Below the pieces are notes generated by a model that saw only the letters and a program-made list of their open reading frames with translations, had not been told where the DNA came from and did no database searches. Below, one piece after another: positions 4,403 to 21,772 of a stretch of DNA of 36,498 bases (position 1 is its first letter; each line of letters starts with the position of its first letter). The position numbers and the translations under genes were made by a program. This DNA is from a virus, in IMG/VR virus record IMGVR_UViG_3300042905_005792, positions 1 to 36,498 of that record; one strand, written 5' to 3'.

Positions 4403-6117
4403 TGATTATATTTAAAAAATGTAGGTGGAAAAATTTTCTTTCCACGGGAAACTCATTTACAGAGGTTGATCTAAATCGATCAACCAACACTTTGATCATT
4501 GGGCAAAATGGCGCAGGCAAATCTACCATATTAGATGCTCTTACGTTTGGTTTATTTGGAAAACCTTTTAGAAAAATAAACAAGCCACAGCTATTGAACT
4601 CTATCAATAACTCAAACTGTGTTGTTGAAATTGAATTCTCTATTGGTAAAAAAGAATATAAAATTATTCGAGGAATAAAACCTAATGTATTTGAAATCTA
4701 CTGCAATAATGTTTTGGTGAATCAAGACGCCAAAGCAAAAGATTACCAAGAACATCTAGAAAAATTCATTCTGAAATGGAACTTAAAAGCCTTTACTCAA
4801 ATTGTAGTTTTGGGTTCCGCATCTTTCGTACCATTCATGCAATTGACTCCGGCAGATAGAAGAACAATTATTGAGGACCTATTAGATATACAAATATTTT
4901 CTTCAATGAATAATATTGTCAAAAATAAAATTAGTGCAATTAAAGATTCACAAAAAGACTACGAGTATCAAATAAAATTAATTAACGAAAAAATACAACT
5001 TCAAAAACAAAATCTTGAAGAGCATAGGAAAAATTTTGAATCGGAAATTCAAAAGAAAAAAGAAGAAGGAATAAAAAATCATGAGTTTGTGGAAAAGACA
5101 ACCCGTAACATTGAGTTAATTCAAAAACATATCGAACAGTTGCAGAATAGTATTTCGGATGAAAAAAATATTCATTCAAAAAGTACCAAAATTGTAACAT
5201 TACAATCAAAACTTTCCGATAACATTAAAAAATTAAATAAAGAAATAGATTTTTTTGAAAAGAATAATGATTGCCCAACATGCCATCAGATCATTACTCA
5301 TGATACTAAAACTAATCACATCACAACCAAAAAAGATAAAATACAAGAAATCGATGTGGCAAGTGAAAAGCTTTCTGATGAATTGAATAAATTACATTCC
5401 CGTTTGGATCAAATTCAAAAAATACAGAAACATATTAATGAACATAACTCTGAAGTAGTTAAATTAAATACACAGATTTTTAGCGTTAATAAGTATAACA
5501 TTAAACTAATTGAAGAAATAAAATCTCTAGAACAGAATACATTTTTCACAGAGAATGATAATGAAAAACTAAAAACTTTAAATGATGAATTAAAGAATGC
5601 AGAAACAAATGGTAATGAATTATCTGTTCAAAAACAATATCATGAATTTGCTGCTACTCTTTTAAAAGATACAGGCATCAAGACTAAAATTATTAAGCAA
5701 TATTTGCCAATAATGAATAAGTTGATCAATAAGTATTTAACTGCAATGGACTTTTTTGTTAATTTTAATCTGAATGAAAACTTCGAAGAAACTATTAAGT
5801 CAAGGCATCGTGACGTTTTTTCTTACGCTTCCTTTTCTGAGGGAGAAAAGATGCGAATTGACCTCGCTTTATTATTTACGTGGAGACAAATAGCAAAATT
5901 AAAAAATTCAACTAATACCAATTTGCTTATTCTAGATGAAGTTTTTGATTCTTCATTAGATGGTGTTGGCACAGAAGAATTTATGAAGCTTTTGAATACA
6001 CTAGATAATAACACTAACGTTTTTGTTATCTCACATAAGGGAGATCAACTGTTCGACAAGTTTAGATCCGTAATTAGATTTGAAAAGAAAAATAATTTTT
6101 CACAGGTGGTAAAATGA
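4402..6117 (+). CDS. 46: Recombination nuclease ATPase gp46 (Rad50/SbcC-like)
   Basis: The 571-residue SMC-type ATPase has Walker A GQNGAGKST (34-42), a long coiled coil (about 170-430), the zinc hook CPTC (Cys291, Cys294) at its centre, the ABC signature SFSEGEKMR (about 475-485), Walker B LLILDEVFD (about 510-518) and an H-loop ISHKG near the end. It dimerises and opens DNA ends for gp47 during recombination-dependent replication and host DNA breakdown. Length and order of motifs match T4 gp46. It overlaps the peptide deformylase gene by 4 bases (ATGA). Confidence 0.95.
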   Translation: MIIFKKCRWKNFLSTGNSFTEVDLNRSTNTLIIGQNGAGKSTILDALTFGLFGKPFRKINKPQLLNSINNSNCVVEIEFSIGKKEYKIIRGIKPNVFEIYCNNVLVNQDAKAKDYQEHLEKFILKWNLKAFTQIVVLGSASFVPFMQLTPADRRTIIEDLLDIQIFSSMNNIVKNKISAIKDSQKDYEYQIKLINEKIQLQKQNLEEHRKNFESEIQKKKEEGIKNHEFVEKTTRNIELIQKHIEQLQNSISDEKNIHSKSTKIVTLQSKLSDNIKKLNKEIDFFEKNNDCPTCHQIITHDTKTNHITTKKDKIQEIDVASEKLSDELNKLHSRLDQIQKIQKHINEHNSEVVKLNTQIFSVNKYNIKLIEEIKSLEQNTFFTENDNEKLKTLNDELKNAETNGNELSVQKQYHEFAATLLKDTGIKTKIIKQYLPIMNKLINKYLTAMDFFVNFNLNENFEETIKSRHRDVFSYASFSEGEKMRIDLALLFTWRQIAKLKNSTNTNLLILDEVFDSSLDGVGTEEFMKLLNTLDNNTNVFVISHKGDQLFDKFRSVIRFEKKNNFSQVVK

Positions 6118-18099: not shown

Positions 18100-18128
18100 T
18101 TAATAAAAAGCCTATATACCTGTATATT
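18100..18128 (+). promoter_or_regulatory. Possible weak promoter overlapping a palindrome
   Basis: TTAATA (18100-18105) and TATATT (18123-18128) are 17 bases apart. The -10 overlaps the palindrome ATATAC-CT-GTATAT (18114-18127), and ACCTG before the -10 also precedes the TATAAT at 18921. It would start just before the small ORF at 18150. Confidence 0.35.
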
Positions 18129-18149
18129 AAATTTTTTACGGAGATTTTT

Positions 18150-18676: not shown

Positions 18677-18771
18677 GGTAGGTAGCACTGGTGTGCGGCT
18701 GAGTCTTATAAGCTCGGGAGATCGGTCAGATGGGCTGAAACGGAAGGGTTCGAATCCCTTACCTACTACCA
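18677..18771 (+). tRNA. Atypical class II tRNA with anticodon TAT
   Basis: A 95-base gene with acceptor GGTAGGT/ACCTACT, T arm AAGGG-TTCGAAT-CCCTT and encoded CCA. The anticodon arm TGAGT-CTTATAA-GCTCG gives TAT, which would read AUA (Ile). A variable region of about 27 bases with TCAG/CTGA makes it class II, a form normally used only for Leu, Ser and Tyr. Position 8 is A instead of the usual T and the D arm is hard to fold. It may be a real unusual isoacceptor or a decayed gene. Confidence 0.65.
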
Positions 18772-18856: not shown

Positions 18857-18872
18857 GTTGCAATAAAACAAC

Positions 18873-18926
18873 GTTGTAAAAATACAACAAAATCAAAGTT
18901 GACAACGGTAACAATACCTGTATAAT
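18873..18926 (+). promoter_or_regulatory. tRNA promoter 2 with inverted-repeat element
   Basis: GTTGT-AAAAAT-ACAAC (18873-18888) lies 10 bases before TTGACA (18899-18904), which is 16 bases from TATAAT (18921-18926). It drives tRNA-Glu and the structured RNA that follows. Confidence 0.88.
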
Positions 18927-18959
18927 TGATTCTGTTGTCGATGCGGTAGTGATAACAAA

Positions 18960-18972
18960 CGATCTTTAAAAA
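18960..18972 (+). promoter_or_regulatory. boxA-like antitermination site in tRNA leader 2
   Basis: CGATCTTTAAAAA differs by one base from the site at 18376-18388 and lies at a similar place, 14 bases before tRNA-Glu. The repeat within otherwise unrelated leaders supports function. Confidence 0.6.
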
Positions 18973-18985
18973 ATAGCTGTTCATT

Positions 18986-19060
18986 GCACGGTTCGTCTAT
19001 CGGTTAGGACGCTAGCCTTTCACGCTGGAAAGACGGGTTCGATTCCCGTACCGTGTACCA
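18986..19060 (+). tRNA. tRNA-Glu (TTC)
   Basis: Acceptor GCACGGT/ACCGTGT, anticodon arm CTAGC-CTTTCAC-GCTGG (TTC), T loop TTCGATT and encoded CCA. The final ACCA also forms the start of the long RNA stem at 19057. Confidence 0.94.
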
Positions 19061-19148
19061 TATTGAAACACATTAGAACCCACCCCTAGTAGCAAAAGCG
19101 AATCAAGGGTGTAATATTGAGTGTGTTTCAATATGGTAATAGGGTTCT
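19057..19148 (+). ncRNA. Structured RNA element 1 (long stem with predicted pseudoknot)
   Basis: ACCATATTGAAACACA (19057-19072) pairs perfectly with TGTGTTTCAATATGGT (19122-19137), 16 pairs beginning at the 3' end of tRNA-Glu. AGAACCC (19075-19081), inside the loop, pairs with GGGTTCT (19142-19148) beyond the stem, a pseudoknot. ACCC (19082-19085) can pair with GGGT (19107-19110). A related element lies at 19556. T4 also makes stable RNAs of unknown role (RNA C and D) from its tRNA cluster. Confidence 0.7.
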
Positions 19149-19310
19149 GTCCCATAAGGGAATGGTAACGAAAGTGCCTTCCAATATGTTCGGTGGCCAA
19201 CGAGCATAGATGCGGAATGTATGAGTAGAGAGGTGAACGAAAGTTTGCGATAAAGCCCCGGTAGGCCTAAGCATGTAATGTGTACAAAATACATCCCTAT
19301 ACCAATTTTC
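19149..19310 (+). other. Untranslated stretch between structured RNA element 1 and tRNA-Tyr
   Basis: About 160 bases with no tRNA and no credible ORF on the + strand. It has small hairpins such as GGAA-T-GGTA with TGCC-TTCC (19160-19183) and GTGTA-CAAAA-TACAT (19280-19294), and AACGAAAGT occurs twice (19168 and 19237). It is probably the 3' continuation of the same non-coding RNA. Confidence 0.4.
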
Positions 19311-19397
19311 GGGTGCGTAGCCAAATGGTTGACGGCAGCAGACTGTAAATCTGTGACATAAGAAACGCTGGTGGTTCGAATCCATCCGCACCCACCA
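19311..19397 (+). tRNA. tRNA-Tyr (GTA)
   Basis: Class II tRNA with acceptor GGGTGCG/CGCACCC, anticodon loop CTGTAAA (GTA), variable arm and encoded CCA. Confidence 0.95.
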
Positions 19398-19399
19398 AT

Positions 19400-19473
19400 G
19401 CGGGTATAACTTAGTGGTAAAGTAGCTGGCTTTTAACCAGCAAATCCGAGTTCGATTCTCGGTGCCCGTACCA
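19400..19473 (+). tRNA. tRNA-Lys (TTT)
   Basis: Acceptor GCGGGTA/TGCCCGT, anticodon arm GCTGG-CTTTTAA-CCAGC (TTT), T arm CCGAG-TTCGATT-CTCGG and encoded CCA. Confidence 0.94.
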
Positions 19474-19482
19474 AAGAAAAAA

Positions 19483-19559
19483 GCCCCTTTGACGGAATAG
19501 GTATACGTGCCATGCTTAGAACTTGGATTTTGTGGGTTCGAATCCCACGAGGGGCACCA
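19483..19559 (+). tRNA. tRNA-Leu (TAG) with an unusually short variable loop
   Basis: Acceptor GCCCCTT/GAGGGGC, D arm ACG/CGT, anticodon loop CTTAGAA (TAG, codon CUA) and T arm GTGGG-TTCGAAT-CCCAC, CCA encoded. The variable region is only 5 bases (ATTTT), so the gene is class I, although bacterial leucine tRNAs are class II; the other leucine tRNA in this array (22216) is normal. The anticodon stem has a T-T mismatch. Confidence 0.85.
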
Positions 19560-19655
19560 TATTGAAGCATTCTAAACTGGACGCAGGATCGGGGAAAGTC
19601 AAAAGCGGGTTGATCACCACAAGTAGACTGGAGATCAAGAGTGCTTTAATATGGT
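19556..19655 (+). ncRNA. Structured RNA element 2 (long stem joining tRNA-Leu and tRNA-Asp)
   Basis: ACCATATTGAAGCATTCT (19556-19573) pairs with AGAGTGCTTTAATATGGT (19638-19655), 18 pairs with two G-T wobbles. The stem starts at the CCA end of tRNA-Leu and ends in the first three bases of tRNA-Asp. Compared with element 1, pair 12 changes from A-T to G-C and pair 16 from A-T to T-A, compensatory changes that support a selected RNA fold. The enclosed 64 bases resemble element 1 only around AAAAGCG. Confidence 0.7.
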
Positions 19656-19727
19656 TCCATAGTATATCGGCGAGTATAGCGCCCTGTCACGGCGCAGGAA
19701 CGGGTTCGAATCCCGTTGGGACCGCCA
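19653..19727 (+). tRNA. tRNA-Asp (GTC)
   Basis: Acceptor GGTTCCA/TGGGACC, anticodon arm GCGCC-CTGTCAC-GGCGC (GTC), T arm ACGGG-TTCGAAT-CCCGT, discriminator G and encoded CCA. Confidence 0.95.
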
Positions 19728-19729
19728 AT

Positions 19730-19803
19730 ACCTGATTAGCTCAAAGGTAGAGCATCCGGCTGATAACCGGAAGACACTGGATCGTTACCAGTATCAGGTA
19801 CCA
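19730..19803 (+). tRNA. tRNA-Ile (GAT)
   Basis: Acceptor ACCTGAT/ATCAGGT, D arm GCTC/GAGC, anticodon arm TCCGG-CTGATAA-CCGGA (GAT) and encoded CCA. The T loop is ATCGTTA instead of the usual TTC-type loop. Confidence 0.92.
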
Positions 19804-19804
19804 A

Positions 19805-19854
19805 GTTGTTTATATACAACGCATATTGCCAAGTTAAATATATATCTGTATAAT
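19805..19854 (+). promoter_or_regulatory. tRNA promoter 3 with inverted-repeat element
   Basis: GTTGT-TTATAT-ACAAC (19805-19820) lies 5 bases before TTGCCA (19826-19831), which is 17 bases from TATAAT (19849-19854). A 77-base leader without a clear boxA follows before tRNA-Ala; it contains CCTG/CAGG and other short pairings. Confidence 0.87.
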
Positions 19855-19931
19855 TACTTATATCAAGTCGGGAGACTTTACGTAGTTCGCCGCTATCTTC
19901 GGATAACCCTGTATACGGTAAGCAGGAAATT

Positions 19932-20006
19932 GGGCTGCTAGTGATAATGGGAGCACGCCGCCTTTGCACGGCGGAGGTTGGAGTTCGATCCTCCAGCGGT
20001 CCACCA
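19932..20006 (+). tRNA. tRNA-Ala (TGC)
   Basis: Acceptor GGGCTGC/GCGGTCC, D arm GTG/CAC, anticodon arm CCGCC-TTTGCAC-GGCGG (TGC), T loop TTCGATC and encoded CCA. Confidence 0.93.
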
Positions 20007-20012
20007 AGTTTC

Positions 20013-20086
20013 GCCCCTATAGTTAAATGGTATAACAGTTGACTTGTAATCATCAATTTCCAGTTCGATTCCGGGTGGGGGCACCA
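20013..20086 (+). tRNA. tRNA-Thr (TGT)
   Basis: Acceptor GCCCCTA/TGGGGGC, anticodon loop CTTGTAA (TGT), T loop TTCGATT and encoded CCA. One mismatch each in the anticodon and T stems. Confidence 0.92.
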
Positions 20087-20094
20087 GTTTTAAA

Positions 20095-20172
20095 CCGAGT
20101 GTAGGATAGTCCGGTCATTCCGCCTGCTTTGGGAGCAGGAAATCGTGTGTTCGAATCACACCACTCGGACCA
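20095..20172 (+). tRNA. tRNA-Pro (TGG)
   Basis: Acceptor CCGAGTG/CACTCGG, anticodon arm CCTGC-TTTGGGA-GCAGG (TGG), T loop TTCGAAT and encoded CCA. Confidence 0.95.
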
Positions 20173-20178
20173 GTTTAT

Positions 20179-20254
20179 TCCGGAGTAGCACAGAGGTAGT
20201 TGCGTCTGACTGTTAATCAGAATGTCGTTGGTTCGATCCCAGCCTCCGGAGCCA
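20179..20254 (+). tRNA. tRNA-Asn (GTT)
   Basis: Acceptor TCCGGAG/CTCCGGA, anticodon arm TCTGA-CTGTTAA-TCAGA (GTT), discriminator G and encoded CCA. Confidence 0.95.
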
Positions 20255-20260
20255 GTTGAA

Positions 20261-20335
20261 GGTAATGTAGCATAACGGTAGTGCGCCTCCTTCATACGGA
20301 GAAAAGTGTTGGTTCAACTCCAACCATTACCACCA
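20261..20335 (+). tRNA. tRNA-Met (CAT), elongator type
   Basis: Acceptor GGTAATG/CATTACC is fully paired, so it is not an initiator. Anticodon loop TTCATAC (CAT), T arm GTTGG-TTCAACT-CCAAC and encoded CCA. It could in principle be an Ile2 tRNA instead. Confidence 0.85.
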
Positions 20336-20347
20336 AAGGAGATTATT

Positions 20348-21235
20348 ATGTTGTTGGATGAAATTATTTCTGTTCCATATACTACTCATCCTAAGATGAC
20401 GAAAAATAAAGGCACTATTTTCAACAAAACTCCAAATTTAGATTATATTCGTTCTAAAGAAAAAGAGTTAAAAGAATTTGCTCCTGATTTGTGTGCCGAG
20501 ACATTTGAAAATATCTCAAAGCAACTTGTTCGAAAAAGTTCAATCTACTGTGGTGTACCACAAACAGATTCAATGATTGAATTTGCAATGAATTTTGAAG
20601 AAGATGTTGCAATTATGCATAACGGAAAATTATCAGGAATTTGTTTCTGTTTTCCGAGTAGTTGGATTCCTAAAAAACGCATAGGTATGTCTCTAGAAGA
20701 TATTCATTCACCAGTTGCGGATAATGAAAGACTTGTGAAAATGAGTGCAAAAATTGCACATACAATGGCGGATCCTGTTCTTGGGTCCTTTCGAAGATAT
20801 GTATGGACGATTACAAATAATCCTGAATTGAGTAATCATCCTAAAAGAAAAAGTATGGTTGTACCTAAAAGTTTAGATGATTTGTATTTTAGACTTGAAA
20901 CTCAAACAACTGCACCTATAGGTGACTGTGTGACAAGTTTGTTCTTTGTTAAAGTTCAAGTAATTCCTCTTAGTCATGTTTGGGGAAGTTACGGTAAACT
21001 AATTACTGACAGTGTAAATTCTATGAGTGATGCAATTTTGGAATACAAAAATCTAAAACATATTAAAACGGTCCTTAGTTCAATGGATCAGAACACCGGG
21101 CTACGAACCCGTGAGGTTGGGAGTTCGAATCTCTCAGGACCGGCCAACTATAATTTGAAAGATGAGTATTATGATATCCTTACAACTGAAGATTGTTTAG
21201 TTAAAGATTCTCCCAGTGGTGTAAAGGCAACATAA
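20348..21235 (+). CDS. DUF3445 family protein (heme-dependent N-demethylase-like) with a tRNA gene in its 3' end
   Basis: The frame has 295 codons. Residues 1-238 look like DUF3445: CFCFPSSWIPKKRIGMSLEDIHSPV, RYVWTITNNPEL, DLYFRLETQTTAPIGDCVTSLFFVKVQVIPL and ending AILEYKNLK. Characterised relatives are subunits of a heme-dependent oxidative N-demethylase. AAGGAG (20335-20340) precedes the ATG at 20348. The last 55 codons run through the complete tRNA-Arg gene (21069-21146, exactly 78 bases or 26 codons) and stop inside tRNA-Trp. The native end is probably near residue 240, and tRNA insertion has replaced it. Processing of the tRNA would cut this mRNA before its stop codon. Confidence 0.75.
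   Translation: MLLDEIISVPYTTHPKMTKNKGTIFNKTPNLDYIRSKEKELKEFAPDLCAETFENISKQLVRKSSIYCGVPQTDSMIEFAMNFEEDVAIMHNGKLSGICFCFPSSWIPKKRIGMSLEDIHSPVADNERLVKMSAKIAHTMADPVLGSFRRYVWTITNNPELSNHPKRKSMVVPKSLDDLYFRLETQTTAPIGDCVTSLFFVKVQVIPLSHVWGSYGKLITDSVNSMSDAILEYKNLKHIKTVLSSMDQNTGLRTREVGSSNLSGPANYNLKDEYYDILTTEDCLVKDSPSGVKAT
21069..21146 (+). tRNA. tRNA-Arg (ACG)
   Basis: Acceptor CGGTCCT/AGGACCG, D arm starting GTTC, anticodon loop CTACGAA (ACG), T arm GGGAG-TTCGAAT-CTCTC, discriminator G and encoded CCA. It lies wholly within the open frame of the DUF3445 gene. Confidence 0.94.
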
Positions 21236-21301: not shown

Positions 21302-21772
21302 ATGTACAACAAAAAAATTAATCTAGAAGAAGTAAAATCGTTTATTGAAAGCTGTGGTCCTAATACCAAAGTTTATCTTGGTTGTGACTCGGAAAAAGTT
21401 AAAATGAATGGTGTTTGGCATGCTGATTATATTATAGCCATTGTTGTGCATATGAATAGCAAAAATGGTTGTAAGATTTTCGGGCAAATCACTCGTGAAC
21501 GTGACTACGATCAAGCTCGGAACAAGCCACGTATGCGTCTGATGAATGAAGTTTATAAAGTTGCAGAAATGTATCTGAATCTTGCGGCAATCATTGATGT
21601 AGATATTGAAGTACATCTTGACATTAACCCAAATGAAGAGTACAATTCAAATATCGTAATTAATGAAGCAATTGGCTATATAAAAGGCATGTGTAATGTT
21701 GTTCCTCTTGTAAAACCAAATGCTTTTGCTGCGTCTTATGCAGCAGATAGATTGAAGAGTCTTGCAGCATAG
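21302..21772 (+). CDS. YkuK/DUF458-like predicted RNase H-fold protein
   Basis: The protein has 156 residues with the RNase H-like start TKVYLGCDSEKV, a RDYDQARNKPRMRLMNEV segment, IEVHLDINPNEEYNSNIV and a C-terminal VPLVKPNAFAASYAADRLKS. This order (YxGxDS, HxDxxP, KPxxxAAS.AAD) is that of the YkuK family, a predicted RNase H-related nuclease with no settled role. GAGGTGG (21291-21297) lies before the ATG at 21302. It is placed inside the tRNA array, 18 bases after tRNA-Trp and 6 before tRNA-Gly, so a role in RNA metabolism is tempting but unproven. Confidence 0.72.
   Translation: MYNKKINLEEVKSFIESCGPNTKVYLGCDSEKVKMNGVWHADYIIAIVVHMNSKNGCKIFGQITRERDYDQARNKPRMRLMNEVYKVAEMYLNLAAIIDVDIEVHLDINPNEEYNSNIVINEAIGYIKGMCNVVPLVKPNAFAASYAADRLKSLAA

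Follow-up and report, generated by a model that had tools for sequence, protein, structure and literature searches.

Long hairpins lie in two spacers of a tRNA array in a virus record of 36.5 kb, and the locus raises the question of whether they are RNAs in their own right or serve the processing of the tRNAs next to them. The window, i.e. the whole stretch of DNA that was analysed (36,498 nt), contains 27 tRNA genes according to ARAGORN. Among the named matches listed for its DNA polymerase, the best comes from a Synechococcus phage (50.8% identity), and its replication proteins include UvsX-like and DnaB-like ones; judged by its sequence, the window is that of a T4-like phage. Phage tRNA arrays are usually taken as a codon supply or as a replacement of tRNAs. 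The results given below indicate that the spacers of such arrays hold a second, hypervariable layer of folded RNA, which is exchanged among close relatives and is also found in tmRNA genes.

Two hairpins with a common stem and unrelated interiors

Both elements are located on the plus strand, as are the tRNA genes adjoining them. Element 1 consists of a left arm (19057-19074), an interior (19075-19119) and a right arm (19120-19137); the corresponding segments of element 2 are 19556-19573, 19574-19637 and 19638-19655. The arms of element 1 were assigned on the basis of sequence, fold and stem covariation in an alignment designated A1. Sequence, fold and covariation in a further alignment, A3, define the left arm of element 2, and A3 covariation also supports its interior. 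As proposed in the first-pass annotation, the regions 19057-19137 and 19556-19655 form long stems with common ends, which comprise 18 bp each. The minimum free energies (MFE) are -34.3 kcal/mol for element 1 (over 86 nt) and -34.6 kcal/mol for element 2 (over 105 nt), and element 1 contains a perfect 17-nt inverted repeat (19056-19072/19122-19138). The compensatory changes suggested for the two stems were confirmed: from element 1 to element 2, A-T becomes G-C at pair 12 and T-A at pair 16. Pair 17 is a U·G in element 1 and a C-G in element 2, whose U·G sits at pair 15.

The stems also make use of the neighbouring tRNA ends, as had been proposed. Both left arms begin at the discriminator base and the CCA of the preceding tRNA. 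For element 1 this is tRNA-Glu(UUC) (18986-19060, called by ARAGORN and by the Rfam tRNA model), whose N73-CCA occupies 19057-19060; for element 2 it is tRNA-Leu(UAG) (19483-19559, ARAGORN). The right arm of element 2 finishes on the first three bases of tRNA-Asp(GUC) (19653-19727, ARAGORN).

The description of the elements as two homologous RNAs holds for the clamp stems, which are alike, but not for the interiors. These belong to unrelated families, each with relatives of its own: the interior of element 1 (fam1, CCCTAGTA...GAATCAAGGG) is common to 39 IMG/VR stretches and that of element 2 (the CTAAACTGGACGCAGG family) to 92. Within the interior of element 1, an AGUA opposite a GAA resembles a loop E, as judged by eye. 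A pseudoknot had been postulated for element 1 (AGAACCC with GGGTTCT); the complementary letters are present, but the pairing is not conserved. It was rejected, since among the 27 rows of A1, which extend 22 columns downstream of the element and were checked over this range, GGGTTCT occurs in the row of locus L043 only. L043, L149 and the window represent a single phage (100% and 99.9% identity) and agree in this downstream stretch. The sister phages L104 and L347 retain the GGGTTCT partner and have a different interior at this site. The pseudoknot is a minor component of the original proposal.

An Rfam scan of the window at the gathering threshold yielded tRNA matches alone. The sole sub-threshold overlap with an element in the window, mir-653 on element 1 (19.9 bits versus a gathering threshold of 77, E 0.7), was taken as chance.

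Pairing is maintained at the RNA level

Copies of the stem were collected with a pairing criterion that treated G·U and A·C equally, and were oriented by the strand of a nearby tRNA alone. A copy was accepted if each outer arm deviated from the consensus by at most two mismatches and the length was 60-160 nt. Once overlapping alternatives had been discarded, 379 distinct copies from 196 loci were left; in 168 of them, the stem does not include the CCA of a tRNA that was called. On the tRNA strand, Watson-Crick pairs account for 5800 cells, G·U for 517 and A·C for 90. G·U exceeds A·C in 267 copies, the reverse is true for 23, and 89 are tied. A U·G is found at pair 17 in 282 of the 379 copies. 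Pair 9 holds 65 of the 90 A·C cells, which belong to a stem variant commonest at tRNA-Lys sites. The far higher frequency of G·U than of A·C on the tRNA strand shows that selection acts on RNA.

For the interiors, loci were fetched by interior letters alone, without selecting for pairing, which leaves some interior letters fixed in the resulting alignments A1 and A3. In A1 (element 1 interior; 39 stretches, 27 distinct rows), 96.3% of the cells are paired compared to 86.2% in shuffles and at most 45.2% in slid controls, the counted structure being derived from the same alignment plus two outer pairs added by hand. Double changes occur in 14 of the 28 pairs; the number of double-changed cells is 70, compared to 20.0 in shuffles, and none of 500 shuffles reached any of the five measures. 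Pairs 43-73, 44-72 and 54-61, whose letters were free in the search pattern, vary with pairing kept. Furthermore, entire outer stems are replaced and pairing is retained. In A3 (element 2 interior; 92 stretches, 46 distinct rows), 17 of the 31 pairs are double-changed in a plain count that had no shuffle control; the double-changed interior pairs include 47-96, 57-89, 58-88, 64-80 and 65-79, which lie outside the search pattern. The rows of these alignments are related by descent. A further alignment, A2, which contains the third interior family (fam3), was judged by eye only. The covariation in A1 and A3 indicates that the clamp and the interiors are both real RNA structures.

These data bear on the idea that the elements are a neutral by-product, i.e. 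inverted repeats that are kept alike by recombination and enclose drifting interiors. The arms are indeed short and reside in recombining phages, and the folding scores of the interiors are weak: compared to mononucleotide shuffles the mean z is -0.47, with 25% of the interiors below -1 and 5.7% below -2, so that by MFE alone the interiors are only weakly special. This idea is contradicted by the interior covariation in two separate sets, by the asymmetry of G·U and A·C, and by the tRNA-specific placement described below; we regard it as highly improbable.

Interiors are exchangeable cassettes

The interiors of the 379 copies fall into 209 clusters, 135 of which are singletons (Chao1 about 412); these clusters are components of blastn matches at E<=1e-3, and distant homologues may be split among them. 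Among the 40 clusters with at least two tRNA-adjacent members, 22 follow two or more different tRNAs. For example, the interior of element 1 follows Glu, Lys, Gln, Arg and two Leu tRNAs, is found once inside a permuted tmRNA, and has no adjacent called tRNA in 13 of 27 cases. Of the 46 distinct contexts of the element 2 cassette, 16 are permuted tmRNAs, in which it constitutes the intervening segment; otherwise it follows a Leu, Gln, Lys, Arg, Thr or Glu tRNA, and in five contexts no tRNA was called.

To assess exchange, sites were paired whose 200-nt flanks matched on either side. Where the interior is the same, the stems are kept in 85 site pairs and changed in four. Where it is different, the stems are kept in 11 site pairs and changed in 25; another 22 are empty or short. 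The 30 pairs with the most similar flanks were inspected out of these 58 different or empty ones. Several turned out to be artefacts caused by neighbouring elements or mis-projected ends, and four were by eye clean swaps that keep the stem, with flanks that are 94.8-98.2% identical: L089/L037 (98.2%), L043/L347 with L104/L149 (97.8 and 97.5%), L026/L072 (96.0%) and L279/L082 (94.8%). The second of these concerns element 1: the window can be aligned to L104 and L347 up to 19078 and again from 19120, a position within the stem. At the tRNA-Lys site L254/L366 (94.5%), the cassette is replaced by an almost bare hairpin. The interiors are exchangeable among phages and contexts, and an architecture consisting of a clamp helix with interchangeable interiors is well supported.

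A selfish mobile DNA or RNA element that targets tRNA 3' ends or processed-away tmRNA segments, where it is harmless, could account for one cassette in many sites, for swaps and losses among close relatives, for the terminal inverted arms and for sites in RNA that is expected to be discarded. This explanation is at odds with the large excess of G·U over A·C and the prevalent U·G at pair 17, which point to pairing selected as RNA, and with the fact that the interiors maintain pairs of their own. We consider it unlikely.

Size and distribution of the family

In IMG/VR, a stem-end pattern with a free interior matched at least 120 stretches. Of the 20 stretches from a narrower scan, 10 were already present in this set, an overlap that suggests very roughly 240 stretches in all. 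Across the 120 loci of the first scan, the best match forms 14-17 of the 17 possible pairs, and a tRNA lies at a distance of at most 1 kb in 116. In general, an 18-bp stem begins at the CCA of the upstream tRNA, and in some copies its other end reaches the first G's of the following tRNA. The window elements, with their CCA-based, covarying stems of 17-18 bp, belong to this family. CCA-closed hairpins with a stem score of at least 14 were detected in 226 of 2458 tRNA contexts, compared to 9 of 2458 after shuffling of the downstream bases, in loci that were chosen for carrying the motif. The density of long hairpins, likewise ascertained in motif-selected loci, is 0.677 per kb near tRNAs, 0.178 elsewhere and 0.07 in shuffled sequences.

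In a cellular genome collection, the strict pattern had no match and the loose pattern had 24. One of these, L136, has 16 of 17 pairs and a tRNA at a distance of 2 nt; it is situated on an 8.4-kb contig of an Alteromonadales MAG that contains six tRNAs and one element. This match looks real, and the contig is possibly binned phage DNA. L137 (15 pairs, tRNA 471 nt off) is doubtful, and L125 is paired at 16 of 17 positions with no tRNA within its 8 kb.

A relative of the window polymerase was detected in 12 of 20 large carrier contigs, with 45-66% identity in eight and 27-38% in four; no relative was found in the other eight, and contigs of this kind may be fragments. One carrier contig has a length of 400 kb. 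It follows that unlike phages carry the family. When two elements were compared with named phages by BLAST, no phage yielded a whole element, and the interiors matched no known family in the Rfam scans made, which included 150 of 192 rows for relatives. The titles and abstract openings listed by searches of an open-access library contained no description of a clamp-cassette family.

Other structured RNAs were observed in element-bearing loci, namely a GOLLD RNA (L095:7302-7765) and a group I intron (L021:13185-13378). Near a fam3 element, weak YrlA (Y RNA-like) matches together with a partial tRNA match are located at L203:5200-5283 and 5527-5636.

Clamp hairpins in permuted tmRNAs

Permuted (two-piece) tmRNAs are often encoded by IMG/VR contigs, for example L119, L178, L207 and L321; L207 is matched by the Rfam alpha model and L119 by the beta model. 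Altogether, 28 permuted tmRNAs were called in a set of 283 loci, which includes 24 cellular ones and many others that were fetched via a cassette favouring tmRNA. Like the cassette of element 2, the fam3 interior can take the place of the intervening segment; it does so in 15 of 32 contexts.

Twelve stretches from named phages, found as matches of two tmRNA-bearing loci, were examined. Eight contain a permuted tmRNA whose intervening segment is a long hairpin at or adjoining the CCA; these are from the Stenotrophomonas phages Marzo and DLP6, Alcaligenes phage QDWS595, the Xanthomonas phages X1 and Rb1, Rhodobacter phage RcSimone-Hastad, Caulobacter phage CcrRogue, and Pelagibacter phage Mosig. 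The segments have other interiors, with almost none in DLP6, and that of Mosig possesses a AAACACATT...AATGTGTTT clamp. XacN1 and QDWS359 have a permuted tmRNA with no clear hairpin of the clamp kind, and no tmRNA was called in the stretches of DSS3P8 and Phass-1.

Intervening segments are reported to be absent from the mature permuted tmRNA (PMC11915505). The presence of similar hairpins in these segments is what one would expect from a control of processing, in which the hairpin itself functions by hiding the CCA and aligning two tRNA ends, and the interior is a tolerated loop. The maturation of the tRNA or permuted tmRNA would then be delayed, ordered, or dependent on a double-strand endonuclease. 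In agreement with such a role, the CCA lies within the stem, as does the 5' end of the next tRNA in element 2, and hairpins nearly devoid of an interior exist (the DLP6 tmRNA; the Lys site of L366). The steering of tRNA processing, which the first-pass annotation had brought up, is possible. As an explanation of the elements, processing control nevertheless lies on the doubtful side, because the interiors are conserved with covariation across unlike contexts and a passive loop needs no such conservation. Moreover, a phage RNase III was found in none of the 20 large carrier contigs, which are fragments; a host RNase III might still act.

Permuted tmRNAs also bring riboswitches into play. For the phages Melnitz and Mosig, a glutamine riboswitch has been reported along with their two-piece tmRNA (PMC9004378), and the interiors contain conserved unpaired letters, as would befit ligand-sensing aptamers that gate the release of the flanking tRNA or tmRNA pieces. 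The evidence to the contrary is that Rfam identified no riboswitch in the window at gathering, near the elements at E<=5, or among the listed matches of the scanned relatives, and that the reported glutamine riboswitch was absent from the 1.2-kb Mosig stretch scanned. In addition, more than 200 interior clusters would be many for metabolites. Aptamers are therefore an improbable explanation.

Preference for certain tRNAs and putative function

A strong hairpin is closed by the CCA in 250 of 2749 distinct tRNA contexts. The values are high for Lys(UUU) (54/107), Glu(UUC) (52/126), Leu(UAG) (33/106), Gln(UUG) (27/103) and Leu(UAA) (15/84), and low for Met (1/221), Ser(GCU) (1/111), Pro (0/117), Ala (0/106) and His (0/77). 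In a stricter count, tRNA bodies were dereplicated, only loci from the stem scan were considered, and all CCATATTGAA elements were removed. Lys (16/47), Glu (14/49) and Leu(UAG) (6/42) remained, and Gln was not significant (4/40, p 0.083). Interior-anchored loci gave 14/22 for Lys, 9/29 for Gln and 8/27 for Glu; Leu(UAG) was not significant (4/22, p 0.09). Shared ancestry of the arrays could be a partial source of this bias.

tRNA-Lys, tRNA-Glu and tRNA-Gln contain a 2-thiouridine at position 34, and the targets of PrrC and RloC include tRNA-Lys and tRNA-Glu. The tRNAs preferred by LshCas13a are those for Lys, Glu, Gln and Thr(UGU), as stated in PMC11042736; Thr(UGU) is not among the 22 isoacceptors listed in the hairpin count. 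tRNA-depleting enzymes such as PrrC are discussed in connection with phage tRNAs in PMC10264068. With respect to a direct action on tRNA, no excess complementarity of the interiors to the upstream tRNA or its anticodon arm was found, and anticodon mimicry was not clear, as T followed by the own anticodon occurs in the interior in 26 of 151 pairs of interior and tRNA versus 20.6 in permutations (sd 3.8). Pairing with the upstream tRNA and anticodon mimicry were both rejected as modes of action.

The diversity and turnover of the interiors and their concentration after Lys(UUU), Glu(UUC), Gln(UUG) and Leu(UAG) point to a role in anti-defence. We see about an even chance that the elements are interchangeable small RNAs that are released with the tRNAs and probably act as accessory anti-defence RNAs. 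Each cassette is a folded RNA domain of roughly 30-120 nt on a standard helix, and this helix has at its base the CCA of the tRNA before it, or that of a permuted tmRNA's acceptor piece, together with the first G residues thereafter. Strand and position suggest that the cassettes are co-transcribed with the tRNA array. Cleavage by RNase P at the next 5' end, together with 3' processing of the upstream tRNA, would free an RNA of 70-105 nt, which would be stabilised by its paired ends and could work in trans. Homologous recombination on the common stem arms would bring about the observed swaps of interiors. The interior would be the working part, and might serve, for example, as a decoy or an inhibitor of host tRNA-cutting enzymes.

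A more specific version of this proposal is put forward only tentatively. The clamps would constitute a modular anti-defence platform of more than 200 observed (about 400 estimated) RNA domains, each of which blocks or baits a different host nuclease; they would be placed preferentially behind tRNAs attacked by host anticodon nucleases, swapped by phages, and also parked in permuted tmRNAs. If true, this platform would correspond, in RNA form, to the anti-defence islands known for proteins. The family opens a direct test of whether phages counter tRNA-targeting immunity by RNA cassettes besides tRNAs. It also offers hundreds of unstudied compact RNA folds and a marker for phage tRNA arrays.

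Comparison with known structured RNAs

Theta ribozymes are HDV-like ribozymes of gut phages, whose cleavage site G1 is located at the tRNA 3' end; a CCA is encoded in 4.5% of the respective tRNAs (PMC10879173). On this description, they resemble the elements in being structured RNAs at the 3' ends of phage tRNAs that are common in viral metagenomes and likely linked to maturation. In contrast, the window elements have an encoded CCA inside the stem and many unrelated interiors, and the base after the CCA is a T (19061 and 19560) and not G1. No HDV-type match was found by Rfam at gathering in the window or at E<=5 in 18860-20360; Rfam may hold no theta model.

The intervening segments of permuted tmRNAs likewise provide a hairpin between a 3' CCA end and the next 5' G end, and carry identical cassettes. 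Unlike these segments, the window elements adjoin complete tRNAs and lie between two intact genes. In the one bacterial permuted tmRNA that was examined by eye (L383), the intervening segment has about 4 nt.

A likeness to the T4 RNAs C and D (the species 1 and 2 stable RNAs), noted at the outset, exists in general terms, as these are short structured RNAs in a tRNA operon. RNA D starts directly after tRNA-Arg, and RNA C (rnaC, L413:1409-1547) ends in a T-arm-like hairpin. A T-arm-like motif is present in some member of 18 of the 209 interior clusters and on the representatives of 17, and in none of the shuffles. The T4 RNAs differ in that there is no clamp stem and no CCA/TGG hairpin with a score of at least 14 at any of the eight T4 tRNAs.

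Integron attC sites possess conserved paired ends and a variable interior, take part in cassette exchange, and act as folded DNA. The paired ends and the swappable interior are shared with the elements, whereas selection here is on RNA pairing and is strand-asymmetric (517 G·U versus 90 A·C). GOLLD and ROOL are, like the elements, phage noncoding RNAs without assigned function near tRNA islands; unlike the elements they are hundreds of nt long (both according to PMC12286853), and the elements match neither model at gathering. The parts of the family have neighbours among known phage RNAs. None of the kinds compared here accommodates a fixed clamp at tRNA ends on which hundreds of RNA domains can be exchanged.

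Neighbouring features of the array

The spacer between element 1 and tRNA-Tyr (19138-19310, 173 nt) is structured, with an MFE of -42.8. L104 and L347 share it at 97.7%, and L177 has 56 nt of it at 84%; it is possibly another noncoding RNA. A ATACCTGTATAATT-like motif is repeated at 18914-18927, 19842-19855 and 18116-18129, and a TTGACA box is recognizable by eye upstream of the copy at 18914-18927. These repeats are probable sigma-70 promoters, one of them directly before tRNA-Glu and element 1. tRNA-Ile(UAU) (18677-18771) was called with a length of 95 nt, which is long for its type. Inside the tRNA array, a protein of the RNaseH_like family PF04308 (phrog_11311) is encoded at 21302-21772.
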